64,000 nucleotides of DNA, from the NCBI GenBank assembly GCA_031763025.1, contig JASSKH010000003.1, positions 11,232,734 to 11,296,733 on the forward strand, given 5' to 3'. This document shows, piece by piece, positions 19,254 through 53,562 of this stretch. The position numbers and the translations under genes are program-made. The notes under the pieces were generated by a model that searched no databases, had not been told where the DNA came from, and worked only from the letters and a program-made list of their open reading frames with translations. Origin of the DNA: Macrocystis pyrifera (Eukaryota; Sar; Phaeophyceae; Laminariales; Laminariaceae). Each line of letters opens with the position of its first letter. Position 1 is the first letter of the stretch.

Positions 19254-19293
<40 letters not shown>

Positions 19294-26904: not shown

Positions 26905-26996
26905 GAATAGGGGGGGGGGGGGGGGGGGGGGTACTCATTTGTTGCTTGCCTTAGTCACTTGACCATTGACCACGAATAGGGGGGGGGGGGGGGGGG
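26905..26996 (-). mobile_element. LINE-type poly-C terminus flanked by two G runs
   Basis: A G run of about 20, TACTCATTTGTTGCTTGCCT, TAGTCACTTGACCATTGACC, then a second G run of about 17. It is the extreme 3' end of the LINE family at 35063, cut to about 50 bp. Confidence 0.7.
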
Positions 26997-28999: not shown

Positions 29000-29262
29000 A
29001 TCGGGGGTGGGGGGGGTGTACTCGATTTCATTCCTGGCCGCAGTTGTATGGCCATAGACCCTCGCATCCCTACAATGCCGGGACGGAGCTCGTCGGGTTT
29101 TCGCCGACCGGACAGACATTGTGCACCAAGCGCGAAGCGCCGTGAGGTGTTGGGCGAGTCGCATGACGTGTGAGTTCCATCCTACTAAAAACCACTTGTG
29201 CGGCAGACTTGCACATGGATGACAGCTTCAATGAGTAAATTTATTTTCCGATGTGGCCACTT
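29000..29262 (-). mobile_element. Poly-C-tailed element, near-complete
   Basis: G-rich start, GTACTCGATTTCATTCCTGG, TCGGGTTTTCGCCGACCGGA, ACAGCTTCAATGAGTAAATT and TTCCGATGTGGCCACTTCC. A second copy follows directly. Confidence 0.8.
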
Positions 29263-29267
29263 CCAGA

Positions 29268-29540
29268 GGGTGGGGGGAGGGGTGTACTCGATATCATTTC
29301 TTGCCGTAGTCGTAAGACCATAGACCCTCGCACCCCTACGATGCCTACACGGAGCACTTCTGGTTTTCATCGGCCAGGCAGAGATTACTTGCACCAAGCG
29401 CGAAGCTCGGTGAGGCGTTTGGCGAGTCGCATGAAGGGTGAGCTGCATCCTACCAATAACCGCTTGTGAGGCGGACGTGCATATATATAGAGATGTCAGC
29501 TTCCATGAGTTACTTTACTTTCCGGTGTGTACCACTGGGG
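29268..29540 (-). mobile_element. Poly-C-tailed element, tandem second copy
   Basis: GGGGGGAGGGGTGTACTCGA, ATATCATTTCTTGCCGTAGT and the same body and end as its neighbour, diverged from it at many sites. The pair looks like two insertions, the later one near the end of the first. Confidence 0.8.
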
Positions 29541-32370
29541 GGTGCACCGGTAATAAGGCGTTGACGAATCAAGGCGACGCACATACGTAACCGTCGACGC
29601 CGACACGTGCAGCGCCCAGAACGAAAAAAAAAAAAAAAAAAAAAAACGAGGAGGCGTCCAAAAAATGTGGCAAAAGCACGTCCAGTCCAGACGGCCTGGG
29701 TCTGTACTACCAAAAAAAATTAAAATATCGTCATCGTCGTACTCAATGTGGTCGATTCATTTTATAGGAAGTTGCAATGTATTATTGAGCATGAACAGGG
29801 TGCAACACCAAAGAGTGTCTCTCGAAAAGAGTGATTGGTGATTGGTCATTGACCGCTTACGGTGTGAGTGGGTTTTGACGTGTGGGTCACACAACTTCTC
29901 TACAATAGTCGACGGCTGCCTCTCTCCCCCTTCTCCCTCCCTCGCGCCCTTCCCACTCTTCAACGGACACGAAAACGAGGCCGATGGGTGACCTTACACG
30001 TGCCACTATTATAGTACAGGATAACGGGGCTACGCTAGCACTCTGTGCGCGCTCCCTCGGCCGCCCTCATTGGTCCCCTCTGCTCCGGGTGCAAAAAAAA
30101 AAGAAGGAAAACAAAAACCGGGCTCCGAACCTGTGCCATGCAGTGGGTTGTACGCTACAGCACACGAGAGAGAAGGGGGGGGGGGGGGACGATGCTCTGC
30201 CGCATATAACACAACTTCATCTCCACCCACTGCGTAAACGAATGCCCTTAACTAACCATGCTACTGTGACCATAAAACTTAAAAACGAAAGGAACGACAG
30301 GAAAAAAAATAAAAAAAGACAATAACAAAACTGAAAAAAAAGGCTTTCGGTTCTTACTCTTCAGAAAAATAAGAAGCCGAAAATTGTGACGGCGCTTCAA
30401 AACTAAACTCCCCCCTCCCCTCCTCCTGACGGGTATGCAGCAACCGAAGCGTATCGCACGGGTGGACCAAGGAAGAAGAAGCCACGCGAAAAAAAAAATG
30501 TTCGAACCAGACAGTTCTACGAACAAGCAAGGGCTTCGACCCAGAAAGTTTTACGCATGAGAAATTTCTACGTGCTTCGGCTGCACCGCACCACCCACCA
30601 CCTCAAGGCGTTTCCCCTTTTGACGGGTAGGAGACGGGCGGTGCACAACCACTGTACAAAAATCTATGCGCGCCAACCTCTTGACCTTCCCCGAACAAAG
30701 CGCCGTTGAGGACCCATTTCCCCAGAGACTCAGAGCCGCAACCAAGAGGGGTTGAAACCAAAACAAATCACGCGACCCGTATCAACCGTCGCCGTCCGCG
30801 ATGCGTATCCCCCCTCTTGCCATCCCCCGCCTCCTCCAAGCGTTCCTTCCGTCCGGGACAAGCGGCAGCAGCAGCAACAGCAGAATGATCTCGCGCGTGT
30901 CCATTCCGACTCGGATTGCGCCGTGCGCCAAAACAAGCACGCGATGCCTCCTACAGCCACAGCAGCGCCAAAGAGAACGAAGTGTCTTTTCTGCACCGAG
31001 CAAAGCACCGAGCAAATAAGGGCTTATTGCGCGTTGCGGCCGCTTCGCTATGACAGCACCGCGCGAAACAACCACCCTCGGTGAGTTGAGTGCCGGTTGG
31101 CGAGAGGCGGAAACATGGTCGCTCCACGGACAGGGTGCGGGTCGGGTTGGGGTGGGGACAAGGTAGGGCGACCCTCATCCCACGGGAAGGGTGGGGGGAT
31201 CGCTACCCCACCATGTTCTGCAGGTCGTCGAAAAAAACCCTTGGTCATGTCCTGCTCATGGGGGGGAGAGAAGGTCGCAGGAGGGGAGGGAGGAAGGGAG
31301 GGGTCGGAATTAGAAATATCGACACCGCCAACAAACCCAAAGCGACGACAAACGCCAAGTCTTGTAAAAGCGCTATTCTACACACGAAAAAGCGAATAAG
31401 CGGATAGGCACGCTAGGTAGATTGATGCCCACCCTCTGAAAAGCGCTAATCTACACACGAATAGGCGAATACGTTAGGGAGACTGGTGCGGGCCCGCCCG
31501 CCCGCCACTGTATTGGCATACCGCACGCACACGCCTCTTTTCAGCGCGGAAAACACAGCGGCAGTGCACGCACCCACGCTCCCCACAAAACGACAAACAG
31601 CAACAAAAAGGACGATCGGACGGCCAGCTTTGTCACCTCGTTACTTGTGGAGCTCTTTTCCCAAAAAACTGGGACCGTTCCAGGCACCGGATCGTTTCCG
31701 ATGGCACCACCCAAGGGCAACCCTCGCCTCTCGGCACGGCACTCGCGAAACGAAAACAGTCCCGTGAGCGTGGCGCACGGCCCAGCAACAAAAAACCGAG
31801 CGTCCCGTATTCACCACTTGCTTGCGTGCTTGCTTTTTTTTGCCACTCTGGCTCACCAGGCCCAACCCGAGCTCTATTACGGCAGAGCATAGCGCTCAGA
31901 ACCAAATGCGGTGTGTAAACGTGGAGGGGGGTATATGGTTCCTACGTCGAGCGTGGGTTTTGATCACTACCGTATACGCAGCCCCTCGTGATAGCGCCAA
32001 ACCCTACAACCCCGACCGGGGCCCGCCTCATGCACGTGCTTCGCGGTTTCCGGGACTGAAATCGAACGAGTCTTGCAAAAACTGTGCAAGATGTATTCCT
32101 GGACTTGCGGTCGCCGTCGAGACTCAGAAGGGACTCGTGTAGGTACCGGTGAGCTTTAAAAGGTCCTGATGTCAAGCTTATCAGTGAAGAAAGAGGTTTT
32201 GAGTGTAGCCCTCAACCATTTATATTTGCATGCATGTGCCAAAGGCAATGTGATGCTGCCCTACGTATACACGCATTCTGAACACGTGGACAAGATGATA
32301 CAGATACCCTTGTTTCCGAGGTATAAATAACGCCTCCACACCTATACCAGAGTGGACAAACAGCTGGGAG
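29541..32370. other. Intergenic, A/G-run rich, no gene recognised
   Basis: It contains an A run of about 27 near 29620, a G run of about 14 near 30178, short CAG tracts near 30865 and scattered A runs. No exon chain with consistent phases was found on either strand. Confidence 0.4.
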
Positions 32371-35016: not shown

Positions 35017-35057
<41 letters not shown>

Positions 35058-38000
35058 CGTACTCATTTGTTGCTTGCCTTAGTCATTTGACCATTGACCA
35101 CGCATCCCTTTCGAGACGGAGCACCGTTCCTACTCCTAATCGAGACACCAACAATTGGGCGCTCATTACGTTGTTTCCATATATTACATAGAAACGTTTT
35201 GCTAATCTTATCCCCTTCCTGTCTGGCCGCCTGTGGCCACCATCTATCTCCTAGGATAGCGATCGTTTTCTCGCTGCTATTCAGTGTATCAAACTCCTCC
35301 ATGTCACATTCGTCTATTTCCCTCATCTCGTCTTCTAACACATCTCGTTCCTCCTTGTATATTTCACATTCTCCTACTATGTGAGTTCTACTCTCTATTG
35401 CTTTGCCACACGGGCACATCTGTGCATCTACTTCCTCCTCCACCCGGCTACTGGTATACCTCTTCTCTCTGGCAGGCCCAAGTCCCCTACACGAAAGATC
35501 AGTGTTCGGGGGGGGGGGGGGGGATACTCATTATCGTGCATGGCCGTAGTCATATGACCATAGACCCTCGCATCCCTACAATGCCGGGACGGAGCACGTC
35601 GGGTTTTCACCGACCAGGCAGACATTGCTTGCACCAAGCGCGAGGCGCTGTGAGGTGTTGGGCGAGTTGCATGAAGGGTGAGCTGCATCCTACTAAGCAC
35701 CGCTTTAGAGGCGGATTTTCTTGCATATGGATGACAGCATCAATGAATTGATTTAATTTCTGGTGTGGCGGGGCGGGGGGGGGGGGGGGATACTCTTCTT
35801 ATGCATAGCCGTAGTCGTACGACCATTGACCCTCGCAACACTACGAGTACAATGCCGGGGAGGCAAGTAGGGGCAAGTACCCCCTCACAGCGGTTCGATC
35901 AAAAGACAGTTCCCGAGAATGCGCACATCCTTCATGTTGCGTGTGAAAAAAAACCCACAACAACCGCAAAAATGAAAATAACATCGATAGCGTGTTTTCT
36001 AGGAGCCATGAATATCACCTACATACGTATACACGGTACCTTCTTCAGGTGGGCGCGGTACATGCTCGCCGCACGGGAGTGGTACTTCTGCTCCGACTTC
36101 TCCATGTCGGTGATCCCGTGGGCGCGGAAGAACGACCTGGCGTTGCCGTTACCCCCGCGCTTCATGGCCTCCATCTCGGCCGGCTTCCACTTGTCCAGCT
36201 CGATGCTGCGCACGAAGGAGACATGCACCCCCATGCTGCGGTGCACCGCCGAGCAGTCATAGCAGATGAAGATGCCATACGTCGCCGAGGCCCAGGTGGG
36301 GTTGCGGGTCCGGCAGTCAAAGCAAACCTTTCGAAAACAGTCGCAGTGTATTTGGGCGAAATGAGCGCAACAGGAGCGCAATAAGGAGCGCGAAAGGAAC
36401 GTGAGAAAGGAACGCGAAAGGAAGTGCATGTACGCAAGCAGAGGGCGAGGCGAAGGGGTACTCGATATCATGCCTGGCCGTAGTCGTATGACCATAGACG
36501 CTCGCACCCCTACAATGCCGGGACGGAGCACGTCGGGTTTTCACCGACCAGGCAGACATTGCTTGCACCAAGTGCGAAGCGCCGTGAGATGTTCGGCGAG
36601 TCGTACGAGGGGTGAGCTAAATGCTGAGAAGAACCGCTTGTGAGGCGGACTTGCATACGAACGACAGCTTCAACGAGATACTTTATTTTCCGGTGTGGCC
36701 ACTTCCAGAGACAGCAATGGGGTTACCATGTAACTGCCTCGTGGGTGCTTTGCCATAAACACTAAATGACACGATCATTCCCCTTGTGCGGCGGAGTAAA
36801 GGTTCTCCACCCGACACAAATTATCTATACAACCCGATCGCCACCTGTGACTGACCTCAAAAAAAAAAAAAAAAAAAAAAAAAAACGGTACCGTGCAATG
36901 GGGCTAGTATGTAACTGTCTCGTGGGTGCTTTACCATGAACACTACGTTATGCGATACCTCCCCTTCTGCCAAGTAAAGGTTCTCCACCCGGCACAAATG
37001 ATCTAACTCGATCGCCAGCTGTGACCGACCGCCAACAAAAAAAGATAAAAGGTACACTGGTTGTCTACTTTAGCTCACGTAGTGAGTGGCATGTTTTACA
37101 GTGTTGTTGCCAACCGACGCCAACCTAACCTATATACCATATAGGGGGGAGGGAGCGAAGGGGGGGGGTGGCAGAAGCAGGGGGTGGGCAGGGGGGAGGC
37201 GATGAAGTGAGCTTCGTAGGTTCGCTCGAATTGCCGTGCAGACAGGTTGGTGCCGACCCCGCGAGGTTTTGAAAAGCCATCGATCGCCGACAAGGAATCC
37301 CACCTGATAGACACACACTACTGCTGTGCCTGGTTGCCCGTCACCTCACGCCACGAGTTACCAATTTACGTACGAACAAAATTCAGATCCGTCCAATTTT
37401 TTGTTGTCGAGGTACAAGAGATATTAATCTGAATCACCAAGGTCAGCCTTGCGGCTGGATCCACCATTCCCGGTATCAACTATTAACACGAGCGTAGGAA
37501 CAGACAGCGCGCAGCGCGTCACCAGTCATTCGATCGTTCGTCCTTCGCACATAGGCGAGAGAGGGCCGGGGCGGGGGGGGCTTGAGCGCTGCATACTGCA
37601 TATATGTCCTGCTGCTGTAATACCGTCCCCTGACATGCCACAGCGACAGGCGACTGCTGGTCTAGAATACCAGGTGACGCTGCTGCTGTGTCGCTGCGAA
37701 GATAAGGCTATATACGTCGCTCATAAGCAGCTTGTTGTTTTCTTCACATTAAACCGTTCTTTCTAAATGTCGACATCCAGCACAACCAGTGTCCGTGCCG
37801 ATTCTTCAATCCTAGAGAGATACAAGTTCTGTGGTCACAAAGCTACGCCACAGATACGGAGATATTATACTACGTTGCCACGTATGCAATGCAATGCCAT
37901 GTCATCGTACTGCGTACGACAGGCACGACATACCCATGCCATGACCTAGAGAAACTAAAATGAAACAAAGAGAAAAAAAAATACAAAAACAAAGACAATT

Positions 38001-40278
38001 CGAAAGAGAAAAAGAAACAAGAAAAAAGAAACAAATATATACGATACCTGGTATATGTATATATAGCAACAAACCATCGTACCCCCCCGCAGGGGATCTG
38101 GCAGACACTTGAAAAGAATGAGCTAGAAAAAAAAAAGGAAAAAGAAGAAATTACCACTATTAATAGTCGTCAACAGAGTAAGACTAAGAACCAAGGGAAA
38201 AATAACAGGCAAACCAAACAAAGCACAAGGCATGCTCCAGGTAGCGGCAGCAGTTTATGGTACGAGTACGTAGCACAGCCAGGGTCTCCCTGCTGGCCCG
38301 CCTGGTACCTTGCTACCCTGTCTGCCACCATCGTCCAGCGTTCGTCAACTATGCCCGGCCCCTCGGCGTCAGATAATACGAAACAAGTAAAGCAGGTTCG
38401 TCATCCACCCACGCCACACGACTCCTTCAATAAGGTTTATCAATCGGAGAAGGAAGAGAAAGAAAATATAATGAAATTCACATAGGGTCAAAGAAGAACA
38501 TAAAATGAAACAAAAATAAACAAAAACAATAGGAAGACAAAGGAAGACCACGTTCGAACCAGCTGCACCAGTTGGCATGGCGGATGCGCGGCGCTGCCTA
38601 CTCAGCTCAGCCTCAGCCTCGTGCCACCTCACCATGAACCGTTCGGCTGCTTCCAGGATCCCCCTGTACCACTTCCCCACCTTTTTTGCAGCAGTGGGCC
38701 ACAGTGCGGTCTCAACTCCAAACACCAAGGAAGCAAGTTCCGTTGACCCTTCGGTGGCTCGGAACTCCCTAAGGTCTTCGACTATGCATCTATGCCAAGT
38801 CTTAACCTGTCCGCCAGGTCTCGGGTTCTCCCCACCAGCAATCGTCCCGAACATTACCCGACTGGGCAATCGATCCTTGCTTTGCCGTGCCACCCTCCCC
38901 GCGAAGAAGAGACGCCGTTTGCGGATGGTCGTTTCGATGCTCTCGCAACGTGTCATCTTGAGGGCCTTCGCGTACGAGAGGGTGGCATGGTCAGTACGAA
39001 GTCGGCGCTGGAAGCCAATGACTCGCAACAGGACTTGGTAGTGAGCCGTTCGAAGCTTGGCAAAGTGTTCCGCTCTGAGGGTCCATGTCACACACCCGTA
39101 CAGCAGGGTCTCAATCACCTCGGCCTTCAGCATTCGGACTTTCAGGATAAGGGGGGCGGTCTTCCTATCATACAGCTCCGGGCCGAACCGTTTGAGGCAT
39201 GCTCGCATGAGACGGATCCGTCGGTCGATTTCGAGCGGGAGGTTAGCGTTTTCGTGGATAATGCCGCCTAGGTACGAGAACTGGGCCGTCTGCTTATACC
39301 TCTGGCCTGCTGCTTCGATAACGAGCGGTGGTGCGAGGGTTTTCTGGTCTGGCGTTTGTAGAAGCATAGTCTCTGTCTTCTTTTCCGACACCGTAAGGCC
39401 TGCTGCTTCGAAGACAGTCACGATGAGTGTCATCATTTTCGCGAGCCCTTCAGCCGACCGAGAGACAATCCCTGCGTCATCGGCGTACAACATGCCTCAT
39501 ACAGCCCTTCGCACGCACGCTCCTCCGTTCCGACTACTCCAGCATCACTGAGTTGGACCAAATCCCTTACGATGGCTTCGTCATGGCTAAAGCGTACTAG
39601 TACGACATGCAACGCAGCAGCGAAAAATACGTTGAACAGTAACGGTGACAGCACACAGCCTTACCGAAGCCCCTGCGTGACATCAAACCATTCCGAGTGC
39701 TCGCCGCCATCCGTACGCACGCGAGCCCGCATGCCATCGAGGAAATTACGGATAATTCTCAGCATCTTGGTTGGTACGCCAAAAACGTGTGGGTACTTCC
39801 CATAACAGCTCTCGGTCGACAGAGTCGTACGCTTTCTGCAGATCGATGAAGCACAAGTACAGGGGGATTTTCCTCTGTCTTCCAAGCTCTTGTATACTGC
39901 AGCAATACCGCTGCTGTAAAACTATACTTACTACAGGTGGTACAAGGTATCAGGCACAACAGAGCATCAACACATGTGACATACATGCCAGGTACTGCTG
40001 TGTACTGCTGTAGGAAAGGAAACGCAGGGACTCGATCTGCGATTTGCGATTGCCAGCAGACTTTCATCGCCGTTCGTACGTGGGGCTCCGGGCTCTACAG
40101 ACGCGCCGCAAAATATTTCCGAGATATTTCGGCAAGAAATCAAAATCAAAAACTATTTTGTTGTTCGGATTCATTCGGCATGGTGGGTATATATTAATAG
40201 TATGTACGACGTATATACGCATCACACATCACCGGCCACGTGCGGCTGCGTACGCTGATTTCACCCCAACCGCTACGC

Positions 40279-40309
<31 letters not shown>

Positions 40310-40662
40310 AAACCTGTGGTCCACGCCCGCTGGGTCTAATGTACGTAAAATATTTAGCTTCGGCGAGAAGGTAATGAACAACAAAACGATGGACAGAACA
40401 GAGCGCAGAAGTGGTCTATATACAGCGCCAAAAGCCGCCAGGAACATCGTACCGGTACGTACAGCAGCGGTAGTACTGACACGAGTGCCACATACCCTGG
40501 TATACAATTACACTATTAATAGTTATCAGAACCAAATATGGCGTGTACACGTAGGGGGATGTAAGGTTTATGGGTCCATCTTGGGTTCTGTTTACTATGC
40601 CCCCCTGTCAAGGGTCATGGTACACCCTGCTAAAAGCGACCACTGCTTGCGACAACGCATAG

Positions 40663-40699
<37 letters not shown>

Positions 40700-41442
40700 A
40701 GGCGCAAATACGTAAACTAATTTCGAAACCACGAAAATACCACGTACCGATCGTAGTGTCGTGTGTCCATTAACGCTGCTGTATTCTCAGTTCTACGGCG
40801 GTGGTACGTGCGTAAACCAAATGCTCCACTGCTGTACCAGACCTCTGGATTGTCTGCTGCTGTTTCCGCACTACCTGGTACAGCAACATCGAGTATACTG
40901 CCGGTGTACTGGTACAAAATAAAACGAACAGAAAAAGCTTAAGGCTGGGTACTCGTACGTAATTGATACGAAATCTGCCGAGTTTTTTGGGCGCTTCGCT
41001 TATCGATCATCGCACACCGTCCACTGGCCCTGCAAAACCGAAAAAGAGAGTGCTCCCGCAAAAGAGAAAAGCGTTACTCGTGCACGACACAAGCACTGGC
41101 ACGAAGACGGCTGAAGTCGTGCGCAATCACCTTGTATCTTCTACAACAGGGGCCCATCAACGGATCTAGAGTTTGTGCAACCACATAGCCGCCAGGCTAC
41201 GCCAGTTCGGCCTTCGACCTGCAGCAAAAATAGAAAAGCCGAAGTCATCAGTGCGACCGAGACATTTACGAGAAAGAGAGACACAACGAGAGGGAGAGTG
41301 AAAAACAAAACTTCCTGCTCCAAAAAAATCGATACCCCCGGTCGGAGGGATGCCTCGGATTGCTTACCTTGTTGTCCGCTTTGCTCCGCAATCGCCGAAA
41401 GGTGCTCTTGACCACATCGGACGGAAGGTACTGGTCCTGCAT
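33307..41442 (-). CDS. ARFGAP2/3: ArfGAP2/3 (Glo3-type) Arf GTPase-activating protein
   Basis: Exons in phase 0: 41442-41368 (start [20 protein letters not shown]), 36327-36040 and 34812-33547. A weak candidate last exon is 33387-33307 ([18 protein letters not shown]). Exon 2 is the zinc-finger GAP domain: CFDC, 16 residues, then CYDC. The catalytic Arg lies in [14 protein letters not shown]. Exon 3 is long and low-complexity (Gly, Ser, Ala) with [17 protein letters not shown] and the Glo3-type [15 protein letters not shown] and ISSDMYFD blocks. These proteins speed GTP hydrolysis on Arf1 during COPI vesicle formation at the Golgi. The length is about 570 residues. Intron 1 (5 kb) contains LINE 2 and a long poly-C-tailed element. 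The start is the only ATG in frame. The family is secure; the C-terminal end is not. Confidence 0.88.
35018..35505 (-). mobile_element. LINE 3' fragment with C-terminal zinc finger and poly-C tail
   Basis: Minus-strand coding runs from 35505 to a stop at 35063. It includes [20 protein letters not shown] and [13 protein letters not shown] (C-x-C-x8-H-x4-C, the kind of knuckle found at the end of some LINE proteins). It continues through [17 protein letters not shown] to MTKASNK. The stop codon is followed within five bases by a run of about 39 C, so there is almost no 3' UTR. The fragment is 5'-truncated by the next element at 35506. It lies in ArfGAP intron 2. Confidence 0.75.
35506..35768 (-). 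mobile_element. Poly-C-tailed element, near-complete
   Basis: G run of about 16, ATACTCATTATCGTGCATGG, GGAGCACGTCGGGTTTTCAC, GCATATGGATGACAGCATCA and ATTTAATTTCTGGTGTGGC. It lies in ArfGAP intron 2. Confidence 0.8.
35772..35875 (-). mobile_element. Poly-C-tailed element, truncated
   Basis: A G run of about 13, then ATACTCTTCTTATGCATAGC, CGTAGTCGTACGACCATTGA and ACAATGCCGGGGAGGCA, then unrelated DNA. It follows the previous copy directly. Confidence 0.7.
36440..37145 (-). mobile_element. Poly-C-family element, long form
   Basis: It has the standard short unit (36455-36710) and continues for about 430 bp more: AACTGCCTCGTGGGTGCTTT, AGTAAAGGTTCTCCACCC and an A run. Part of this is internally repeated (36719-36885 and 36898-37035). 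It ends with TAGCTCACGTAGTGAGTGGC and CCAACCGACGCCAACC. The extension matches the copy at 50747. Here the terminus has only GGGG. It lies in ArfGAP intron 1. Confidence 0.75.
38369..39893 (-). mobile_element. LINE 2: 5'-truncated RTE-like LINE in ArfGAP intron 1
   Basis: On the minus strand it begins inside reverse transcriptase ([20 protein letters not shown]), passes through [10 protein letters not shown] and continues as a 374-residue open frame from 39493. That frame has intact [16 protein letters not shown] and [10 protein letters not shown]. Frames change near 39800 and 39500. It is clearly related to LINE 1 yet well diverged. Truncation at the 5' end is typical of LINE insertion. It has the same orientation as the host gene. 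The last 60 or so residues read into AT-rich 3' sequence and are probably not real protein. Confidence 0.85.
40270..40312. repeat. (CTG)n microsatellite
   Basis: About ten CTG units (40280-40310) in ArfGAP intron 1. Confidence 0.8.
40662..40700. repeat. (GGCA)n microsatellite
   Basis: Nine or so AGGC units in ArfGAP intron 1. Confidence 0.85.
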
Positions 41443-42599
41443 CGATCCTTCGCTCGGTGCAGGGCAGGCCTCTCGGGTGAGAGGTGCCGGTTGCAACTTC
41501 TAAAGTTACGCCTTCCGGACTTCGCAATATGGAAGGTTTCAGTAATAGCAAACATGCAAACACGGGGTGGCGATCATTTTGTCCCCGGTTTCTACACCCC
41601 GGTTTCTACGACGAAAATATGGAAATACAACAGCAGAAGGTACAGAGAGGTCCTCTTGAAAGGTACGACGTAGAGCGGCACAGCGTACCAGAGCCCCAGC
41701 TGTGGAAGTGTGGAACCTGGGCGAACTTCACTGGTGCCAACATAGCGACAACCCGCGATAATACAAGTACAAGGTGGGTCGGTAAGCGACGTGCATCAAC
41801 GCGGACTTATTTCGTGTGTAGTCCAGTACAGCACTCGCTGCTGTCTGTTGCTGTTGTACGTAGCAGAAGGCCCGGTGCGTATTCGGCTGATGACATCGAG
41901 ACTACTGCGTTTTGTAGCGGCTCTTGGCGACATTCTCCTAGATACAGTAGTATGACTAAATCCTGCTTGTGCTGCTGCACCTGGTATCTCGTAACGTGGC
42001 GATGGCGATTTGCCGATGCACTAGAGGGTGGACCCAAATGTCAACCAGTGTTGAAAACGTGACGTTCAACCCGGCGACAGGCGACCCGGCGTCCGACCTG
42101 GGTTATTCGCCGTGGCTCTAAATATCAGGAATTTAATCAATCCGTATGACAAGAGTTCTCCTGTTCTGTCGTCCCAGGTACCTACAGTTTAGCTGTACCG
42201 AAAGAGATCTTTAATAGTCGTCGTAGACAGCAGTAGTATCATACTGGTATTGCTGTTGTAGATATATTGAAGATTGTCGAGAGGTGACAGAGTATACTGC
42301 TGTCGTTCTCGAAGAGCCTCGTCTACGGCAGAACTGCTGTGAGGCCGGATCTTACGCATTTTTTTTTGAGTGATTGAAAAAGGCAGGGAGTCGGATATTC
42401 CAGCGGCCAAAACCCACACCAGATCAGTGCGCCGGTCGACCAGCCCCAGGAAAAGTAAACCGGGGTGCCTCCCCCCCCTTCCCTACAGCAGTAGCGAGAA
42501 AACGATCGCCATGCGAGGAGATCGATGGTGGTGACAGGCGGCGAAACAGGAAGGAGATAAGATGAGTACAAAATACATATGATACCTGGTACCTGGTAT

Positions 42600-42660
42600 G
42601 TAATACAAGGCGCTTCGCTGCGCGGGCGGCTTACGCCGCCCGCTACGCTCGCTCAGGAAA
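42600..42660. repeat. GC-rich palindrome
   Basis: CGGGCGGCTTACGCCGCCCG with CGCTTCGCTGCG and CGCTACGCTCGCTCA flanks. A related half copy is at 42802-42842 (CGTCGCGGGCGG, CGCTACGCTCGCTCA). The first overlaps the end of the gene at 42653. Confidence 0.5.
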
Positions 42661-43279
42661 AGTACATCAGATTATCCCAAGCGGACAGAGGTCCATGATT
42701 GAATACTGTTTTTTTCATGACTGTAGTTGCAAACTGGCGACTTGGTAATGCCAAGAGTCCCGCCGCCATGCTTCAGGAGAAAACAACTCGGACGCCACAT
42801 ACGCTTCGCGTCGCGGGCGGTTTTCCGCTACGCTCGCTCACCTGTCGTACGTACGTACATACCCAGGTAGGGTACTTATTTTCTTCTTTCGATATATATT
42901 ATGCTCTATGTCTGTACTCGTATGTACGAAAGATAAAGCACAGCACGACACAGCAACACAGCAAAAACAATGAAAATGAAACCGAAAAATTCTGAAAGAA
43001 AAAAAATCCCCGTCCCCTTTCGTGTAATAATTTACTACCGTATTGAAACACCTTACATCGGTCAAAAAGAAAAAAAGGAAAGAAGAAAAAACTCTTACAG
43101 CAGAGCTTCTCTCTCAGCCTTGTACGCCGCCCGCCCCTCTCGCGACCATCTCGCAACCGATTCGGTCCGGATAAAGCTTTCCGTCCCCTCTTCTACAGTG
43201 AGCCCCGTCGCCCGCCTCGCGTGAAGCCCGGTGCTCACCGTGGACCTCGTTCGCCAGCTCGACAATGTTGGTGCTCAGA
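42653..43279 (-). CDS. Unrecognised gene, three 3' exons
   Basis: Exons 43279-43239, 43192-43099 and 42770-42653 join in consistent phases (1/1, 2/2, 1/stop) at GTGAGC and GTAAGA donors. The readings are LSTNIVELANEVH, then EGTESFIRTESVARWSREGR and AAYKAEREAL, then MAAGLLALPSRQFATTVMKK, ending at LSAWDNLMYFS. The middle exon is charged and helical. I do not recognise the family. There is no ATG upstream in the available frame, so the 5' end is missing. It probably lies toward or beyond the start of the ATG14-like gene on the other strand. The third exon could instead be a separate 38-residue reading. Confidence 0.5.
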
Positions 43280-43759
43280 CTGGGTACCTCCCTCTTGTGA
43301 TTTTTAGCCCGGTCGCAAAAATAAGCACCGCTTGAATATTATCTTACAATCCCGAACGACCCTTAAATACTCGCACGTACTCTATCAAAAATCACAAATG
43401 GAGGCCAGACAGAGCCTATTGATGCATCTCTCGTGTCTCGGGGCACACGCGACGCCTAGGCACGAAAGCGGCGACCGCGCTCCTTGCAACCCCCCCTCTA
43501 CCCGCCAGCACCCGCGACGGTGCCGGGTTCGCCCGCGGAACCGTGCTCGGAGTACACGCACGCACACGAAACGAAAGAAGAAAAAAAGAAAGAAGGACTG
43601 AAAGTACGAAGAGAAATGGAGAAAACAAAGACCCGCTGGAAAGGTCCGGTACGTAATAAAAGGAGGCGATTTCCAAGTGGGAGCTCTGAGCGGCCAGGGA
43701 TGTACCAACCGAGCACGCTCAGAGAGTGAGATTTAAGTAAATAGTTCTGTATGAAGAAA

Positions 43760-43884
43760 ACGTAATGAGCGCACGGGTGTTGGAAGTGTCTGTATTTGGA
43801 GTAGGAACGGCGTTCGGTCTCGAAAAGGGCGCGCAGTCAACGGTCAAATGACTAAGGCAACCAACTCCCCGCATGCCCCCTCCC
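43760..43884 (+). mobile_element. LINE 3' end remnant
   Basis: AATGAGCGCACGGGTGTTGG, GGAACGGCGTTCGGTCTCGA and CAACGGTCAAATGACTAAGG match the LINE fragment at 35063 in the opposite direction. The poly-C is reduced to CCCC. It lies just before the ATG14-like start. Confidence 0.65.
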
Positions 43885-43906
43885 GCCACGGGTTTCAACA
43901 GGCAAG

Positions 43907-46900
43907 ATGGCGGTAGTCCGCCGGTGGAAATGTGGAGTCTGCAATGCCAAGGCAGGGGACTTGGTGTGCAGCCGGTGCGTGACGCAGGAGGCAGAGCGGC
44001 GAAGGATGGAGCGGGCCGAGCGACTGGAGGCACTGCGCGCCGTTCGCGATGCGGCGGCTTTTGCCGTGCAGGTGATACTTTAATTGTTTGTGTGCTTGTC
44101 TTGCCGACGGGTTTGCACCACCATGCGTTACTGTGTTTGCCTTGTTCTTCGCGAACATATGTGAATACGTACAATATACCTACGTACCTGGTATATTGTT
44201 TTATTTTATTTTCGAACATCATTGTGTATATATGCCACGTATGTATGAATCATTCGGTTGTTTTCTCTTTGTTTATTGTTGCCGCCTTGTGTGCGCGCGG
44301 CTTCCGTCTTCTTGGTCTGATGTTGGGTACGGGAAGAAAGCGCGGTGGGATTCACTGCGGCCATTCACAAAGCTTAAGCCAAGCCACATATCGTACCACG
44401 TGCTGTAAGCTGTGTTCTGAGGGTATCGCGCCGAGCGCATCGTTTTCGGAAAGACCGTCATGCTTGTCATATTGTTCGTGAAACCAAACGTTTCACGTGC
44501 TTCGCCTGCTAGCTTGCCCGCTTCGCTTGCGAAAGACGATGGCCACTTTGAGGGGATTTGCAAGGCCAGCTATACTAGGTGGGTTGTTTGACCCACCGAA
44601 ATGCTGGGCGATGACCACACAAAGAATACCGCGCTTTTTCTCATCATACAGGAAAATCCTCCAGGTATCGTACCATACCATCCCATTTTCCCTTGGGTGT
44701 GGATATCTGGTACTGGTATAATATGTGGATATGGATATTGGATATGGATACGTGGTTATGGATATGTGGATACCAGTGGATAGGTAGATATCGATATGTG
44801 GATATGTGGATTGGATAGTCGTGAGTATATGCACATGGATAGAACTGGGTAGTATGCCCACTAATACATGTCCCGCTGCTTGCCGTTGCTTAAAATACGT
44901 GAAAACCGCGCGGTGCGATTAGGAGCGCCAGGCAGCCGTCCAGCGCGAAGCGCACCTGGAGAAGGAAGCCGCTGATGAGTGCCGCCTCAAGGAGCAAGTT
45001 CGCGAGGTGACCAAGAGGGTCGCTGAAGGTGAGGTTCAGAAGCTAAGGCCCTAGCTGGCGACGACACTGGTGAGCTGTCTATGCGGCGTGCTGCGGTGGT
45101 TACGGGTACGTCGGCGACGACGGGCGTGGCAACAGTTGCATATACCTTCCTGCCGGTTGCAGTGCGCTGTGTATACATGATACAGTATATATACAAAAAT
45201 CACATCTTAGAGCTCTCGAAGCACACCTTCATTAACATCGTAGTTATATTTGTGTCGCGGCGGGAGCAGTGCAGAAACGTATTGGGGGAATCAGTGGGAT
45301 GGGAGAGATTTGCCACGTACGCTGTCGCTGGCGCTTTGGAACGACGCAAAAGGATTTCTTGCAAAAGCTACACAGCTCCCGGTTGTGACCACGTGTTGTA
45401 GCCCTCGACGGGTCTACGGTGTGCTTCGACCAGCCGTCCTCAAGCTTTTGCTCATGCCTCCCTTCGCCCCACCCCTTTCCCTGCCCACCTGCCCGCCCGC
45501 CCGCCTGCCCGCCCGCTAACTCTGCTACAAATCAAATCCCGTCGACAAAAGAACGGATCAAGGTCGCGAGCGCGGCGTTCGCCCTCAAGCACCACCGCGA
45601 CCTGCTCGCCGCGGCGGAGTCCCAGCTGACGCGGGAGCAGATGTCCGCCGCGGAGATGAAGGAGGCGCTGCTGGACGGGCTGAGGCGGCATAGCGAGGAC
45701 GCGGCCCGAACGCTGGGGCAGAGGCGTTGGCGGAAGGTGGTGCAGCTGTTTGTCCTGCTACCCGTCGCACCGTCGATACCGATGAGTGGCCGTTCCCCCC
45801 GCGGCGCGGCGATCTGGGGTGTCGGAAGATTTTGAGCCCGGCGGCGGTGGTGGTGGCGGCGGTGGTGACGGAAGACAAGGCTCTGTTAGGGGGGGGGGAG
45901 GGGAGTGCGAGGAGGGGGGAAGGAGTGGCAAGCGTGGAGCGGGATTGCTGGGCGCCGGGGCGGCGGCTACGGTCAGCGGTGTGAGCACGCTGGTGGACCT
46001 TCCCCTACCGAACAACGGAGACTATAGCCGTGAGTGTGGGGTCATTTGTTTTGCTCTGGTACTCCGTCACCGCTCTTGGCGGAATTATAAGGACCGTTTA
46101 GACGTTATTGTGTGAGGACGTTTCCGTCCATTGGGGTAAGGGTTCACGATTTTTTTGGTGCTGTTGGTGGGTGTGCTCGAGTAAAACTATGCCGTCGGTC
46201 GGCGCCCGAGAGTGGGCGAGTTGCACGCTAGCTTGTAGCGTGGGCTGTTCGGTCACCTATGGTACGACAATGCCGTTTGTCCAGCTCGTTGGGGCAGGGC
46301 TGCGTGCACGATCAATCAAATCCTTTTTTTTTTCAATAGACTTGCATTTGCACGTGGCTTGCTATGGAAGCGACCCCGTCCCTTCGCTCGCCTTGCCAAC
46401 CGCCGAGCCAGATACTGATCGTCACAAAAATAAAAACACATCGGATCGGAGGCGCATGCCCCTTGCCATCGCCCACAGGGGCTGACCTTCGTGCCTGCAC
46501 GCGCGGTGTTAGGCCCCGTCGGGCACGAGCGAGCAAGACTATATTCCACTTCATGCAAGCTAATGTCGCTATCACCCCGGCGCTTGGTCCCAGCGATGTG
46601 TGCCTGGTCGGTGAAAACCCGACTTGCTTCGTCCTGGCATTGTAGGAATTCGTGGGTCTATGGTCACCCGACTACGGCCATGCATGATAATGAGTATACC
46701 CTCCCCCCCGTCGCGCTTGGTGCAAGCAATGTCTGTCTGGTCGGGCCGTTTTTTTTCTAGTCAGACCCTGATGCACACATGATGATCTGAAGTGCTCCGT
46801 CCCGGCATTGTAGGGATGCGAGGGTCTATGGTCATCCGTCTACGGTCATGCATGACTACGAGTAGCTTCCCCCCCTTTGTTCCCTCAAGTTTTGTTGTGT

Positions 46901-49900
46901 GTGTCCCGTACCCCATGCTTGGGTGGTGCTGCGTGTCACTGTTGATATTGATGCCCCATTTACTACTTTGTCATATTCTAGAACTACGGGTAGCTCGTAG
47001 GGGAATAAAAAGGCATACGAAACCCAGTCGGGGCATAGACCAGGGCTGACAGCCGGTCCCCACGTGCATATATGTATGTCCTGTTGGGTTGTCCGCAGAG
47101 GTGCCGGCCGACGTGCTTATGGCCGCGCTGGCGGTGCTGGCCCGCCTACTGGTGGGCGTCGCTTCCTGCCTCGGGGTTTCGCTGCCGCACCCGCTGTTTC
47201 CGGCGGCGTCGACGCGGTACGCCGCCATCTCGGTGGACTCGTCTCCTAGAGAGAGGTGAGAGGTGAACCAAAACGCCGCGCGACTCGGCTGTCCCCGCTG
47301 TCGAATGTTTGGCAAGCATGTTGATTGTTACGAGTGAAAGGAGTTAAATGAGCATCTTGGTGCTAAAGCGCAGCGAGGTACTACGTAGAGCAAAGCGAGT
47401 TGTTAATAGAGTGAAGAGAGTTTCTAATAGGACGAAGGGAGTTGCTATGTCGGGGAGGCATACTGTAGTTTTCAGAACCCACGATGGACCAAAACAGAAA
47501 AGCACATTTTCCCCCATGTTTATGAACGATATTTGGTTATGGTTACTATGTTTCCAGGTGTTATTTGGAGCAAGGCGAGGTGCTTCTATGCAGAGCGAAG
47601 CGAATGGCTACTTTACACGGCCGCCTATTTTATAGAGGGGCAATTTTGAGCTGCACGAACTCGGAATCTCCGTGCCGTCCCGCCGAAAATCTCCTTTTTT
47701 GTGTGTTTTTTATGTACCAATCACGGCAAACAGTGTCCACCACCACCACCACCCACCGGCGCACGCAGTTGACGGTAGTTACAAAAATCTACGGCTGGCG
47801 CGAGTTCCTTAGCGAAAACCACGTACCCCACATTTCACGGTTCACGAATTCGGTGCCGTTCTCTGTCCGGAAGCACCCCACGCAACCGCCAACGTTCGCC
47901 AGGAATGCCTCCGCCGCCGCCGTGGCCACATCACTTGCGCCTGCATACCGTATGACACTGGGTGATAAGATAACACCCCCCCCTCAGAAAAAAATCTCAA
48001 GCTAATTTTTACTCGACATCGGTGAGAGTGCAAACGCCAAGCGATACATACGTCTACGGGAAAGGTATCGGCGAGATTTTTCCAAAGCCACGGTCATTCC
48101 GGTTGCGAGCGCTCTCCTTGTTGTGGAGAAAAGCTGTTCGGAAACTCCTCCCGGGGGGTGTGTCATCTTGCTTATGACAAAGTATAGGCCTGTCCCGGCT
48201 TGCCCCACCACACCAGAGGAATACCAAACACATTTATTAATCATCGCGTCGTTACTCCATCCTGGTGCTACTGTAGATAGGACTGCCCTCCGGCTGCGCG
48301 TGGCGGCCTGTTGTCTCTGCGCCCCCCCCCCCCCCCACACACCCGCACCCTGCAGATGGTGTGTTGCGTGTCGTAGCTCTAAGAGTCATGTCTTTGGGAC
48401 GGCGGCAGCAGTGGCATGGGTTCCCAGCAGCATGTTGGTGCGCTGTTGGAAGCGCCCTCGGCTGAGGCTGAGATGAATTCCTACTCTCGAGCGCTCTTTT
48501 TTTATTGTCCCCACTCAACTCGGTTTGTTTTGTTTCTGACGTTGTTCCTGACCCTGCTCTTCGCTCACAGAACTTACATGCAGCGCAAAAAATGACCGCC
48601 CGCGCCCTTCTCCGCGCCGCCCCGTCCCGCCCCGTCCCCTCGCATCCTGAAAGGTCCAGCCAGTACCCTCTGTGTCCCCCGTCCAAGATGGCGGAGATAG
48701 GGGTCATGGGGGCAACTTCCATGGTGTGCAATACGGTGGGCGCGTTCGAAACTGCGCTGGATCTACTGCGAAGGTATGAACGAGGGCGACAGGCATTTAC
48801 TACCGCAAGAAAATGTCCCGACACTAAGATCAACTAGCTTGTCCCCAACAGCGTTGGTGCTGTTCTAAATGGGTTAGGTCACGAGGGCTGTCCAGTGTCC
48901 CGGGAGGGTATTTCTGGCACACCGTTCGGCTCATTGTAGGTGCGTCCATTTGACCCAGCGGAGCGAACAAATCAGACAAGAAGGAGCATTGCCGTCTTTG
49001 CTTTTTGGCTTTGGGAGGTAGTATTGATAGTACGTGTACGTAGAAGCATACCCGGTATACCAGGTACAGAGCAAAGTAAAATTCCAGGAGAGTTCTAAAA
49101 TATGCCACGTGGAGAACCCCCCTCGGAAAAAATCGGGGTCACGGGTTGGACAGAGCCGTTTTTTTTTCGGCGTGTTTATGGCGTTGCTCCGTGCCTGCTT
49201 CATTGCCTACGAAGTATTTGTGATTGGGTGAGTGGCTGGGTGGATGGGTGGGTATGTGCGTGGGTGCGTGGGTGCGTGGGTGGGTGGGTGGGTGCATGTG
49301 AGTGTTTGCGCGTGCCCTGCGTGTTTTCACTTGATTTGCCGCCCCGTTGTCGTTGACTGCTGCTGTAGAAGGTGATGCATGCGTACACCTTAGGTATGGG
49401 TCCAGGCCTGCACAAGAAAAACGTTCGGCAACGATTCGAAGATTGACATCCCCTTCCGTCACGTGTGGTCGAGATGGGCGCCCTATTACGGGGGTCCATA
49501 GTTAATAGGACCTATGGTATACATAAAAAAAACTATATATTTACCTATTTTTACCAACAGTTTTTGGTCCTATTTACTATGGTCCCCCGTAATAGGTGCG
49601 CGTCATGGTTACATGATTCGATTCGTCTCCCATGCTTGCTTGTTGCTCGTACTCACGCGTTAAAAAAAATGTTTTCCTTTTTTTTTCGGCGCTGGCCAAT
49701 ATTGTCTTTGGCCTCGGGTTGGCAGCGACGTAGTGCACCTCTGCGTGGAGGGTGCGAGGGTGCCCGTGGACAGACTGTGGCCCGCCGAAGCGCTCCTCCT
49801 CAACCTTTGGGAGCTACAGCAACACGCGATCTCGGAGCTGCGAAGGTGACAGAATAGCTCTGTTTTGTGCTCGCTCTGTCTCGTGCTTTCGTGCTTGCCG

Positions 49901-50749
49901 TGTCCTCGTACATGGCACCTTTCTCTCTCTTTCCTCTCCCTCCCTGTGGTACCTATATATGCTCTCTCTTTGTCTTCGTCTTCGCTATCTCTCCCCCCCT
50001 CCTTTTTATATACTGTAGTAATGCGTGTTTCTCTGTCTCTGTCTCTTCTTCGCCAATTTTTTATGTTTTGTTCGTTCGGTCTATGTCTGTAAGTTAACGT
50101 TGTATCGGTCTTGGGTTGAGTGCGCGTTTTCTTCCTGTCGTCCAGAGGTAAACATGGAACTATGCAGTAGCACGAGGAGCGATGGAGCGCGGAGATGCGC
50201 AGTGTCATTTGAAACCGGACGCAGACATAATCGACTGGGAAATCACCTTTCCCCGCACACGAGCACTCTTGGTTCAGCCTGCACCGCACGGATCAACACG
50301 ACAACAATCTCTTGCAAACATGCGACCGGACAAGTATTGATTTGGAAACTTGTTCGCCATACGAATATATGTACACATGTATTCATGCTGCGATTTTCGG
50401 GGGGGGTATGCGGACGTTCGATGCCGTGCCTGTATAGCCTCGTTCGGCGCAAAACTGTCTAGCTTTTTGGACAGCTTTACCGTGCCTAACCGGCGTCTCC
50501 TTTCAATCACGCAGTGCCTTCGTGCCTGAGTCTCATGCTCAACATTTGAATATTGTATGACCCCCGCTCTCCTATGCTGCGTCGCCCGTGTTCAATGTGT
50601 TGCGTGCACCTTCGCCAGTTCATCTCCGGTGGTTGACGTTCCCGTACCTATGCCGCGAGACCCGCCCGAGGTGAGCAGCAGGAGGCAAGGGGTAGAATGC
50701 GTGGAAGCCGCGTCGCGGGGCGTCGGGGTCGCGGGGCGAGGGAGGAGCA

Positions 50750-50784
<35 letters not shown>

Positions 50785-51988
50785 GTACTCGATAGGACAG
50801 ATGTACTCGATCTCATGCATGGCCGTAGTCGTATGACCATAGACCCTCGCATCCCTACAATGCCGGGACGGAACATGTCAGGTTTTCACCGACCAGGCAG
50901 ACATTGCTTGCACCAAGCGCGAAGCGCCGTGAGGTGTCTGGCGAGTCGCATGAAGGGTGAGCTGCATCCTACTAAGAACCGCTTGTGAGGCGGACTTGCA
51001 TATGGATGACAGCTTCAATGAGTTAGTTTAATTTCTGGTGTAGCCACTTCCAGAGACAGCAATGAGAGTACTATGTAACTGCCTCTTGGGTGCCTTACCT
51101 TGAACACTACGTGATACGATCAATTCCCTTGTGCAGAGTAAAGGTTCTTTACTTCGCACAAATGATCTAACTAGACGACCAGCTGTGGGCGACCGCCAAA
51201 AAAAAAAAAACAAAAAAAAAAACGGTACCCTGGATGTCTAGCTCACGTAGTGAGCGGCACGTTTTACAGTGTCTTTGCCAACCGACGCCAACCCAACCCA
51301 TATATAATATATATAATAGGGGGGGGGGGGGGGGGAGGGGGGGGGGTATTGGATTGACCGGTGTCATTCCTTCGCCTTTGGGTTCTTGTGAGCACGCGAA
51401 CCAAGCCGTAGTGTATATTCTATTAATACGTGCGTTCATTCTCTCTTTTCCGATGTGGCGAGTGTGACACACATCGTACCCTAAGCACGAATTGAGCACC
51501 ATACCGTACTGCAATTTATTATGCACGGGCCACCGATTGATGAACGTAACCGGGAAGGGAAGATTGCATCCCGTGGTTATTCTCATCGAATTCGTGCCGC
51601 TTTCCTCGTACATGCACGACGTGAAACGCATGTGTGTGTACATACACAGCGAGCGGACGGTCAGCGGCAAGCGATACTCGGCTTCCATCGTTCTGGTGAG
51701 GCACGAGGAGGAGGAGCAGGCGCAGGCCAAGGAACGGGGGGGGCGGCAGGCAGGGATTGGGTGCCGGGGCAAGGCGGGCAAGATGGTCGCCGTGCACCAA
51801 GTTCGTTGGACCCAACCTCCGCGGCAGCAGCAGCACCGGGAGGGGTGGAGGACGAGGAAGCCACTTACGAGTTTGTCGTCGGCGATGGAGTTGTAGAGAG
51901 TGAGAATGGGGGCGCCACTGGTAGGGGTTGGTCTTCCTGGGGGTCGCGGTTGGCGGCCACGGGTAGTGGCGGGAGGCTTAGTGGCTAG
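43907..51988 (+). CDS. ATG14: ATG14-like autophagy protein (UVRAG/Barkor superfamily)
   Basis: Exons: 43907-44071, 44923-45028, 45552-46029, 47099-47255, 48654-48773, 49726-49845 and 50619-50670. All phases agree once one C is removed from the run at 45794-45799. Last coding is probably about 51650-51988 (DEEATYEFVVGDG), unresolved. The N-terminus has CGVC and CSRC, the zinc-binding pair of ATG14, then coiled coil (EAERRRMERAERLEALRAVR) and RRWRKVVQLFVLLPV, LVDLPLPNN, LAVLARLLVGVASCLGVSLP, SSQYPLCPPSK and VVHLCVEGARVPV. ATG14 targets the class III PI3-kinase complex (Vps34, Vps15, Beclin) to autophagosome formation sites. Introns carry a MITE and poly-C-tailed elements. UVRAG/Vps38 is the alternative; the N-terminal cysteines favour ATG14. 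Confidence 0.78.
44690..44822. repeat. GGATAT-rich repeat
   Basis: Imperfect TGGATATGGATAT units in ATG14 intron 1. Confidence 0.65.
46580..46880 (+). mobile_element. Two truncated poly-C-tailed elements
   Basis: The first (46580-46705) has TGGTCGGTGAAAACCCGACT and GCCATGCATGATAATGAGTA, then a C-rich end. The second (46706-46880) has CTCCGTCCCGGCATTGTAGG and GGTCATGCATGACTACGAGT, then CCCCCCC. Intron 3 of the ATG14-like gene. Confidence 0.7.
47366..47455. repeat. About 21-bp tandem repeat
   Basis: Four diverged units of the type AGCGAGTTGTTAATAGAGTGA, with a further related unit near 47572. ATG14 intron 4. Confidence 0.5.
49215..49310. repeat. GTGGGTG-rich tract
   Basis: Imperfect GTGGGTGC units in ATG14 intron 5. 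Confidence 0.7.
49486..49592. mobile_element. 107-bp MITE, TTACGGGGG family, TA-flanked
   Basis: Ends TTACGGGGGTCCATAGTTAA and TTTACTATGGTCCCCCGTAA are nearly perfect inverted repeats, flanked by TA. The best-preserved copy; it sits in ATG14 intron 5. Confidence 0.85.
50747..51347 (-). mobile_element. Poly-C-tailed element, long form between two G runs
   Basis: A G run of about 34, GTGTACTCGATAGGACAGAT, then the short unit to about 51045. The extension follows (CTGCCTCTTGGGTGCCTTAC, AAGGTTCTTTACTTCGC, an A run, CTCACGTAGTGAGCGGCACG), ending in (TA)n and a second G run at 51318-51347. It matches 36440-37145. ATG14 intron 7. Confidence 0.78.
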
Positions 51989-53534: not shown

Positions 53535-53562
53535 TCCCCCCCCCCCCCCCCCCCCCCCGTTG
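53535..53562. repeat. C homopolymer of about 24
   Basis: Long C run in GCGTCCCC...GTTGATTG, not beside a recognisable element terminus. Confidence 0.8.

Follow-up and report, generated by a model that had tools for sequence, protein, structure and literature searches.

A long interspersed nuclear element (LINE) of the kelp Macrocystis pyrifera and a nonautonomous derivative of about 530–690 bp that shares both of its ends very probably insert preferentially into poly-C/poly-G tracts (we put the probability at about 0.82). We studied the pair in a stretch of 64,000 nt (assembly GCA_031763025.1, contig JASSKH010000003.1, positions 11,232,734 to 11,296,733, forward strand; hereafter the window) and in further copies from the same assembly. 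Copies of both partners stop at one fixed 3′ terminus, are truncated to varying extents at their 5′ ends, and are flanked on both sides by runs of C on their own sense strand.

C runs on both flanks of the copies

We assembled 154 distinct copies from loci chosen by similarity, their flanks and the window, after dropping 11 of 165 (identical surroundings or a position near the locus edge), and counted C runs by script. Within 25 nt of the 3′ end, a sense-strand run of at least five C's is present in 140/154 copies and one of at least eight in 108/154. The 5′ side, assessed in the 142 copies with both flanks (12 more were dropped), shows such runs in 112/142 and 86/142, respectively. Among 5,000 random 25-mers outside the elements, by comparison, 4.2% hold at least five consecutive C's and 0.8% at least eight, while runs of at least five G's, that is, on the wrong strand, occur at one 3′ end (1/154) and one 5′ end (1/142). 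Both partners follow the pattern: runs of at least five C's lie at the 5′ end of 39/49 LINE copies and 73/93 short-element copies, and at the 3′ end of 44/49 and 85/93. The 5′ run is kept in 68/94 copies when those that sit behind another tail are excluded. An initial annotation of the window, made from its letters alone, had stated that its reading would be refuted by C runs equally common away from the terminus; this does not hold for random places (4%), but the 5′ side proved as characteristic as the 3′ side.

Exact-pattern counts across the genome agree with this at both ends. The 21-nt LINE tail occurs 3,161 times and leads into at least seven C's in 2,202 of these, and six C's lie 4–30 nt upstream of 770/916 short-element 5′ motifs on the reverse strand (forward-strand matches included repeated places, and single counting of the reverse places was judged from the rows listed). 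In 12 stretches hand-picked among the exact-tail matches listed (100 of 3,161), C runs adjoin 12/12 3′ ends, where the search pattern itself ends in one C, and 4/4 placeable 5′ junctions; in the remaining stretches, six elements run past the stretch and two have no usable alignment. Insertions are concentrated in one simple repeat, seen on both flanks, as is characteristic of simple-repeat-targeting elements.

Target-site duplications, which the initial annotation had proposed looking for, are present in the copies as a group. At least five C's lie near both ends of 103/142 copies. Fewer than 4 nt separate the run from the 5′ junction in 58 of these; another 42 have 4–20 nt there, and in them the bases beyond the run match those of the copy's own other side (0.207) better than in any of 200 permutations (mean −0.017, standard deviation 0.05, maximum 0.108). 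The match is strong in 8/42 copies, whose C counts (5′/3′) are 23/22, 10/91, 13/9, 10/6, 9/9, 10/57, 7/9, and 8/8; the 3′ run is thus longer in three, shorter in three, and equal in two. Since it is found at both ends and falls within the duplication, the C run is mainly the site of insertion and not simply a tail.

Copies are also frequently nested. Among the 142 copies, 42 start within 70 nt behind another copy, as expected if C runs left by insertions are reused. At locus L077, a LINE lies within the C run of a short element, and the bases on its two sides are similar (C9-ATCCTTTAGTA and C21-TCCTTTTAGAA).

Window copies and their common 3′ end

BLAST of the copies against the window, followed by reading of each place, yielded 15 short-element copies, including one of 27 nt (3224–3250) that is weak taken alone, and four LINE tails. 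The initial annotation had likewise reported at least 15 short copies with varying 5′ starts and a single terminus; each position it cited (8805, 19865, 29000, 29268, 35506, 36440, and 50747) lies at a copy or immediately outside one, and the limits it set, 35018 and 51347, are the outer edges of two G runs. Boundaries of the copies at 35058, 35790, and 46864 were set from BLAST and reading, because in another comparison these copies aligned through a neighboring one. The features are as follows:

342–426, minus: short-element tail (360–426) with G18 at its 3′ end and no G run at its 5′ end (BLAST, read)
2007–2070, plus: short-element tail (2007–2056) with C14 at its 3′ end (BLAST, read)
3224–3268, plus: the weak 27-nt short-element tail (3224–3250) with C18 at its 3′ end (read)
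7731–7818, minus: short-element tail (7746–7805) with G15 on its 3′ side and G13 on its 5′ side (read)
8829–9246, minus: chain of a short element (8829–9084) and a LINE tail (9096–9246) with a G-rich stretch between (BLAST, read)
9805–9897, plus: short-element tail (9825–9872) flanked by similar C-rich duplications, CCCCACCCCTTCCCCAGAAC and CCCTCCCCCTTTCTCCAGAAC (read)
19880–20111, plus: short element (19880–20096) with C15 at its 3′ end and only G5 near its 5′ end (BLAST, read)
26905–26931: 3′ copy of a duplication, GAATA and G22 (read)
26932–26977, minus: very short LINE tail, 46 nt aligned, its final bases overlapping the duplicated GAATA (BLAST)
26974–26997: 5′ copy of the duplication, GAATA and G19, so that the LINE tail has GAATA-G22 and GAATA-G19 on its two sides (read)
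29017–29529, minus: chain of two short elements (29017–29268 and 29283–29529) with a G-rich stretch between (BLAST, read)
35019–35057: G39 run at the 3′ end of the LINE copy 35058–35507 (run listing)
35058–35507, minus: 5′-truncated LINE copy with zinc-knuckle C-terminus, its stop codon about 5 nt before the run (BLAST, open reading frame)
35508–35523: G16 run between the 5′ end of that LINE copy and the 3′ end of the short copy 35524–35769
35524–35769, minus: 5′-truncated short element nested in a chain with the LINE copy 35058–35507 (BLAST, read)
35790–35859, minus: 5′-truncated short element behind a G15 run, 35775–35789 (BLAST, read)
36442–36458: G-rich stretch AGGGCGAGGCGAAGGGG at the 3′ end of 36457–37144, a likely target duplication that matches 37150–37163 imperfectly (by eye)
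36457–37144, minus: long short-element copy of 688 bp with an internal duplication of about 165 bp and a 5′ block shared with the LINE at 37086–37125 (BLAST)
37150–37163: G-rich stretch AGGGAGCGAAGGGG at the 5′ end of 36457–37144, a likely target duplication (by eye)
43750–43865, plus: old LINE tail (BLAST)
46580–46864, plus: two old short-element copies (46580–46697 and 46711–46864) with C-rich stretches (BLAST, read)
50750–50783: G34 run at the 3′ end of 50784–51318 (run listing)
50784–51318, minus (sense strand): long short-element copy of 535 bp with a 5′ block shared with the LINE at 51261–51298 (BLAST, read)
51319–51346: G17-A-G10 run at the 5′ end of 50784–51318 (run listing)

All window copies share one terminus, ...GAGTAC on the sense strand (with variants in old copies), and vary at the other end. 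A pure C/G run of at least eight adjoins the terminus in 11/19 copies, in keeping with the earlier statement that most do; the remaining eight (8829, 9096, 9872, 29283, 36457, 43876, 46697, and 46864) have shorter or interrupted G-rich stretches there. Conversely, of the 22 window runs of at least 12 nt, 13 adjoin a copy, in some cases at its 5′ end, and nine adjoin none. C/G runs of this length without a recognized copy lie at 557–576, 1050–1079, 1959–1970, 7853–7865, 19256–19290, 30175–30188, 48322–48336, and 53536–53558, and are possibly free targets or belong to other families.

The resemblance between the last 70 or so bases of the short element and the LINE end, also first noted from the letters alone, is borne out by a median local alignment score of 37 against 14 for shuffled sequences (shuffled maximum 25; 400 pairs each, from 20/50 LINE tails and 20/46 short-element tails). 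The copy at 9096, previously described as a bridge near 9083, does combine a LINE body with a final 25 or so nucleotides like those of the short element. For a hairpin, TGGTC-N4-GACTA, sites were chosen by similarity to the motif itself in 55 LINE tails and 82 short-element tails, and the 17/154 copies without a site were dropped. About 94% of the stem positions are paired at these sites, but the stem is nearly invariant, and the same tails give it no covariation support. The last 18 or so nucleotides of the tail are repeated (GAGTAC-ATCTCTCCTATCGAGTAC) at 50784–50803 and at many short-element loci (e.g., L005, L008, and L017), a subfamily mark. An exact-pattern search for relatives in the viral_contigs and genome_contigs sets returned no matches.

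The LINE and its short derivative

A near-complete copy at locus L076 supplies the full-length LINE with the same 3′ end that the initial annotation had anticipated. Its open reading frame (ORF, 2852–6262) matches RVT_1 (1.6e-29) and Exo_endo_phos (9.6e-11), both above cut-off, and the LINE is a retrotransposon without long terminal repeats (non-LTR), with an apurinic/apyrimidinic-type endonuclease (APE). The zinc-knuckle end of L076 continues in a different frame, so its reading frame is broken. In the window, the minus strand of the LINE fragment 35058–35507 encodes the knuckle (CPCG...H....C), as had been proposed for a fragment near 35063. The LINE ORF runs through the shared tail, which is therefore LINE coding sequence, to a TGA stop. 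Between this stop and the C run stands GTAC or GTACG, so that the 3′ untranslated region (UTR) is about 5 nt long, a very short 3′ UTR being a trait of RTE elements. Across 49 copies with a visible 5′ end (median identity to L076 94.8%), the 3′ end is fixed and the length spans 44 to 4,165 nt of the reference. The name RTE-X for such LINEs comes from papers on Ectocarpus and Saccharina (PMC12477816, PMC4421812), the latter of which lists RTEX-1 with the elements that inserted recently in the kelp Saccharina japonica.

L076 and L079/L082 start identically (ACAAAATCT) right behind C-rich DNA, L082 reading C41-TTCCCCCC, and a C-rich run precedes the LINE in four of five upstream stretches examined (L076, L079/L082, L080, and L081). 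A search of L083 did not recover the 3′ end of the full-length copy L079/L082. The 5′ region of the LINE (1343–1968 in L076) holds about five tandem units of about 127 bp with T runs, reminiscent of L1 promoter monomers.

The short element is abundant, with 1,783 exact occurrences (867 + 916) of its 25-nt 5′ motif genome-wide, and of 93 copies whose 5′ end is visible, 23 extend to the reference start. Its 5′ block is identical to the LINE 5′ end at 34/40 nt (score 50; maximum of 500 shuffles 31), and blastn with the LINE matches it at 37086–37125 (E = 4e-6) and 51261–51298 (E = 5e-5). With a LINE match at the 5′ block and another at the 3′ tail, the short element shares both ends with the LINE; blastn found no match between its middle part and the LINE. 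Two window copies, 36457–37144 and 50784–51318, extend far past the core of about 237 nt, and neither wholly contains a stop-to-stop ORF of at least 200 aa. Comparison of 36714–37050 with 51046–51248 shows a unit of about 165 bp with a T run; the 688-bp copy has two of these and the 535-bp copy one.

The short element had been taken for a short interspersed nuclear element (SINE) mobilized by the LINE. Its 5′ truncation and its 3′ tail, common to a partner LINE as in SINEs, fit that proposal, and the LINE presumably mobilizes the short element; the name SINE is doubtful. We found no tRNA-, 5S-, or 7SL-derived head with an RNA polymerase III (Pol III) promoter, although a decayed promoter is possible: ARAGORN reported no tRNA in the window, and Rfam gave no hit at gathering thresholds in the window and none at E ≤ 5 in 36440–37180. 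Both long window copies carry a long T run on the sense strand, which would normally stop Pol III. We therefore reject a classical SINE as a demonstrated class, given that no Pol III-type head was found and the 5′ end is shared with the LINE; judged by its sequence, the element would be better named a nonautonomous LINE derivative of the RIME/NARTc kind.

The window also holds reverse transcriptase ORF pieces at 25746–26537 (plus; RVT_1, 3.8e-8) and 38369–39496 (minus; 9.4e-6, below cut-off). The kelp LINE has no match to the former and, beside the latter, one that is weak (26%, E = 1e-5), so these pieces look like another LINE family. An ORF at 12053–13282 (minus; Kelch_1, 5.3e-6, above cut-off) is probably a host gene.

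Probable insertion into C/G tracts and alternative origins of the runs

Since the C run lies on the sense strand of the element, it is the G-ended strand that would prime reverse transcription. We propose that the LINE endonuclease makes its nick in the G strand, close to the 3′ edge of a G tract. By target-primed reverse transcription, the G-ended 3′-OH would then serve as primer for copying from the common 3′ tail, a scheme equivalent to that of L1 with T/A replaced by G/C. The second strand would be cut at the run or a few bases past it. The target-site duplication would thus consist of the C run, in some cases together with neighboring bases, and the run would be present on both sides. One insertion could in this way make two C runs from one, later copies could land there, and reuse of the runs would give nested chains such as those at 35019–35859, 8829–9246, and 29017–29529.

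Several observations weigh against a preference of this kind. At least five C's are absent from the 5′ end of 30/142 copies, the 5′-truncated LINE at L078 lacks any C run, and the full-length L076, though its flanks are C-rich, shows no clear duplication. No strong match beyond the run is seen in 34/42 copies, perhaps partly because nesting separates the two sides. Apart from the genome-wide exact-pattern counts and the 12-stretch sample, copies were sampled by similarity to window queries, and the evidence consists of filled sites in one genome assembly. The preference for tracts could also stem from breaks at G tracts instead of from the endonuclease. G tracts that break or stall would supply G-ended 3′ ends for priming, a source we consider unlikely, though it is still a serious alternative to endonuclease choice. 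G tracts are indeed fragile in dog-1 mutants of C. elegans, according to the part of the report cited (PMC4369104), and the strict strand orientation is compatible with any G-ended primer, but the duplicated bases past the run suggest a staggered cut, even if breaks could yield some.

The C runs had previously been interpreted as a poly-C tail, borne by the RNA or added by the enzyme at an unspecific target, much as RTE elements make simple repeats between duplications. In its favor, C runs adjoin the 3′ end oftener than they do the 5′ end (140/154 vs. 112/142), and do so more cleanly. Of the 103 copies with runs on both sides, 58 have the longer run at the 3′ end, 35 have it at the 5′ end, and 10 have runs of equal length, with extremes of C10/C91 and C10/C57. 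The 3′ UTRs of RTE elements are also described as very short and in many cases composed of simple repeats (PMC2887409, PMC1291365). Such a tail predicts no 5′ run, however, whereas one is seen in 112/142 copies and 770/916 motifs genome-wide, and run lengths are alike overall in the eight best-supported duplications. We reject a pure RNA tail, as C runs flank both sides, and regard the broader tail model as improbable; run lengths leave both options for C's that may be added by the RNA on top of a target run.

Template jumping, in which the enzyme moves to the C-ended 3′ end of a second RNA, would create chains in one event and make the 5′ run the tail of that second RNA. Same-strand chains with C runs between them (42/142 copies, and those in the window) are what it would produce, but a 5′ C run is also present in 68/94 of the copies without another tail within 60–70 nt upstream, and the bases beyond the run resemble those on the other side, which makes this origin very hard to sustain. 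An artefact of homopolymer sequencing or assembly is more improbable still: although run lengths in the assembly are uncertain, the runs keep a single orientation across thousands of element ends, with matching non-C bases beyond them, and the assembly was built from PacBio long reads, as stated in the part of the source paper cited (PMC10498591).

Insertion into C/G tracts might also be self-seeding, a tentative extension that we think less likely than not to be right. Poly-C would then be both landing site and 3′ priming tail: transcription would continue into the C run alongside, the resulting C-ended RNA would pair with the next nicked G tract, in the way that poly-A pairs with oligo-T in L1, and each insertion would double the number of targets, so that the pair would have helped fill the genome with G/C homopolymers. 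The genome holds 93,041 C/G runs of at least 14 nt, roughly one every 5.8 kb. At least 6,528 (7%) come immediately after GAGTAC and a purine, so that the exact tail leaves most long runs unexplained.

Related elements and significance

Short nonautonomous elements that share the ends of a LINE, the 5′ end included, are known from the trypanosome pairs ingi/RIME and L1Tc/NARTc. Host and LINE are unrelated to those in kelp, and the kelp pair has no match to a hepatitis delta virus-like ribozyme: one at the shared 5′ end found no support, with no Rfam hit at E ≤ 5 in 36440–37180 and three unrelated hits far below cut-offs in L082. In mammalian L1 and Alu, a homopolymer at the 3′ junction also opens the duplication and the primer strand is complementary to it, but that homopolymer is A/T whereas in kelp it is C/G. 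Insertion into a simple repeat is likewise the habit of the LINEs that Kojima and Fujiwara reportedly described in 2004, which target other repeats and belong to other clades than the kelp LINE. Among open-licence PMC papers, searched by title or start of abstract, we found none on a LINE or SINE targeting poly-C or C/G homopolymers.

L1 and Alu have no common 3′ sequence besides the A tail, according to the text cited (PMC3747384). The RTE elements of Lepidoptera (PMC2887409) and SR3 of schistosomes (PMC1291365), as characterized in the sections available, resemble the kelp LINE in having APE and reverse transcriptase domains, a single ORF, a tiny 3′ UTR next to a simple repeat, and frequent 5′ truncation. 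Their repeat lies between the duplications and they are described as having no sequence-specific target, whereas in kelp the run is on both sides.

The closest likeness is in the brown alga Ectocarpus, where the most abundant family, in the account given in PMC12477816, is a nonautonomous element of about 600 bp that shares its 3′ end with RTE-X LINEs. RTEX-1/RTEX-2_Ec32 and RTEX-N1_Ec32 correspond by description to the kelp pair: a LINE plus a short element, thousands of copies, and a common 3′ end. A LINE/short-element pair is thus already a known kind. A word search of the main text of that paper (figures and supplements lying outside it) found no poly-C, homopolymer, or simple-repeat target. 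Its authors could not place the 5′ region of RTEX-N1 and left its SINE status open; in kelp, by contrast, the 5′ end of the short element matches the LINE.

LINEs that target simple repeats are known, and the C/G homopolymer target is the apparently new aspect. Such a target is easily recognized and prone to slip, and would tie transposition to the growth of homopolymers. The shared 5′ end, in turn, suggests an answer to the point left open in Ectocarpus, namely the source of the 5′ part of the short element.

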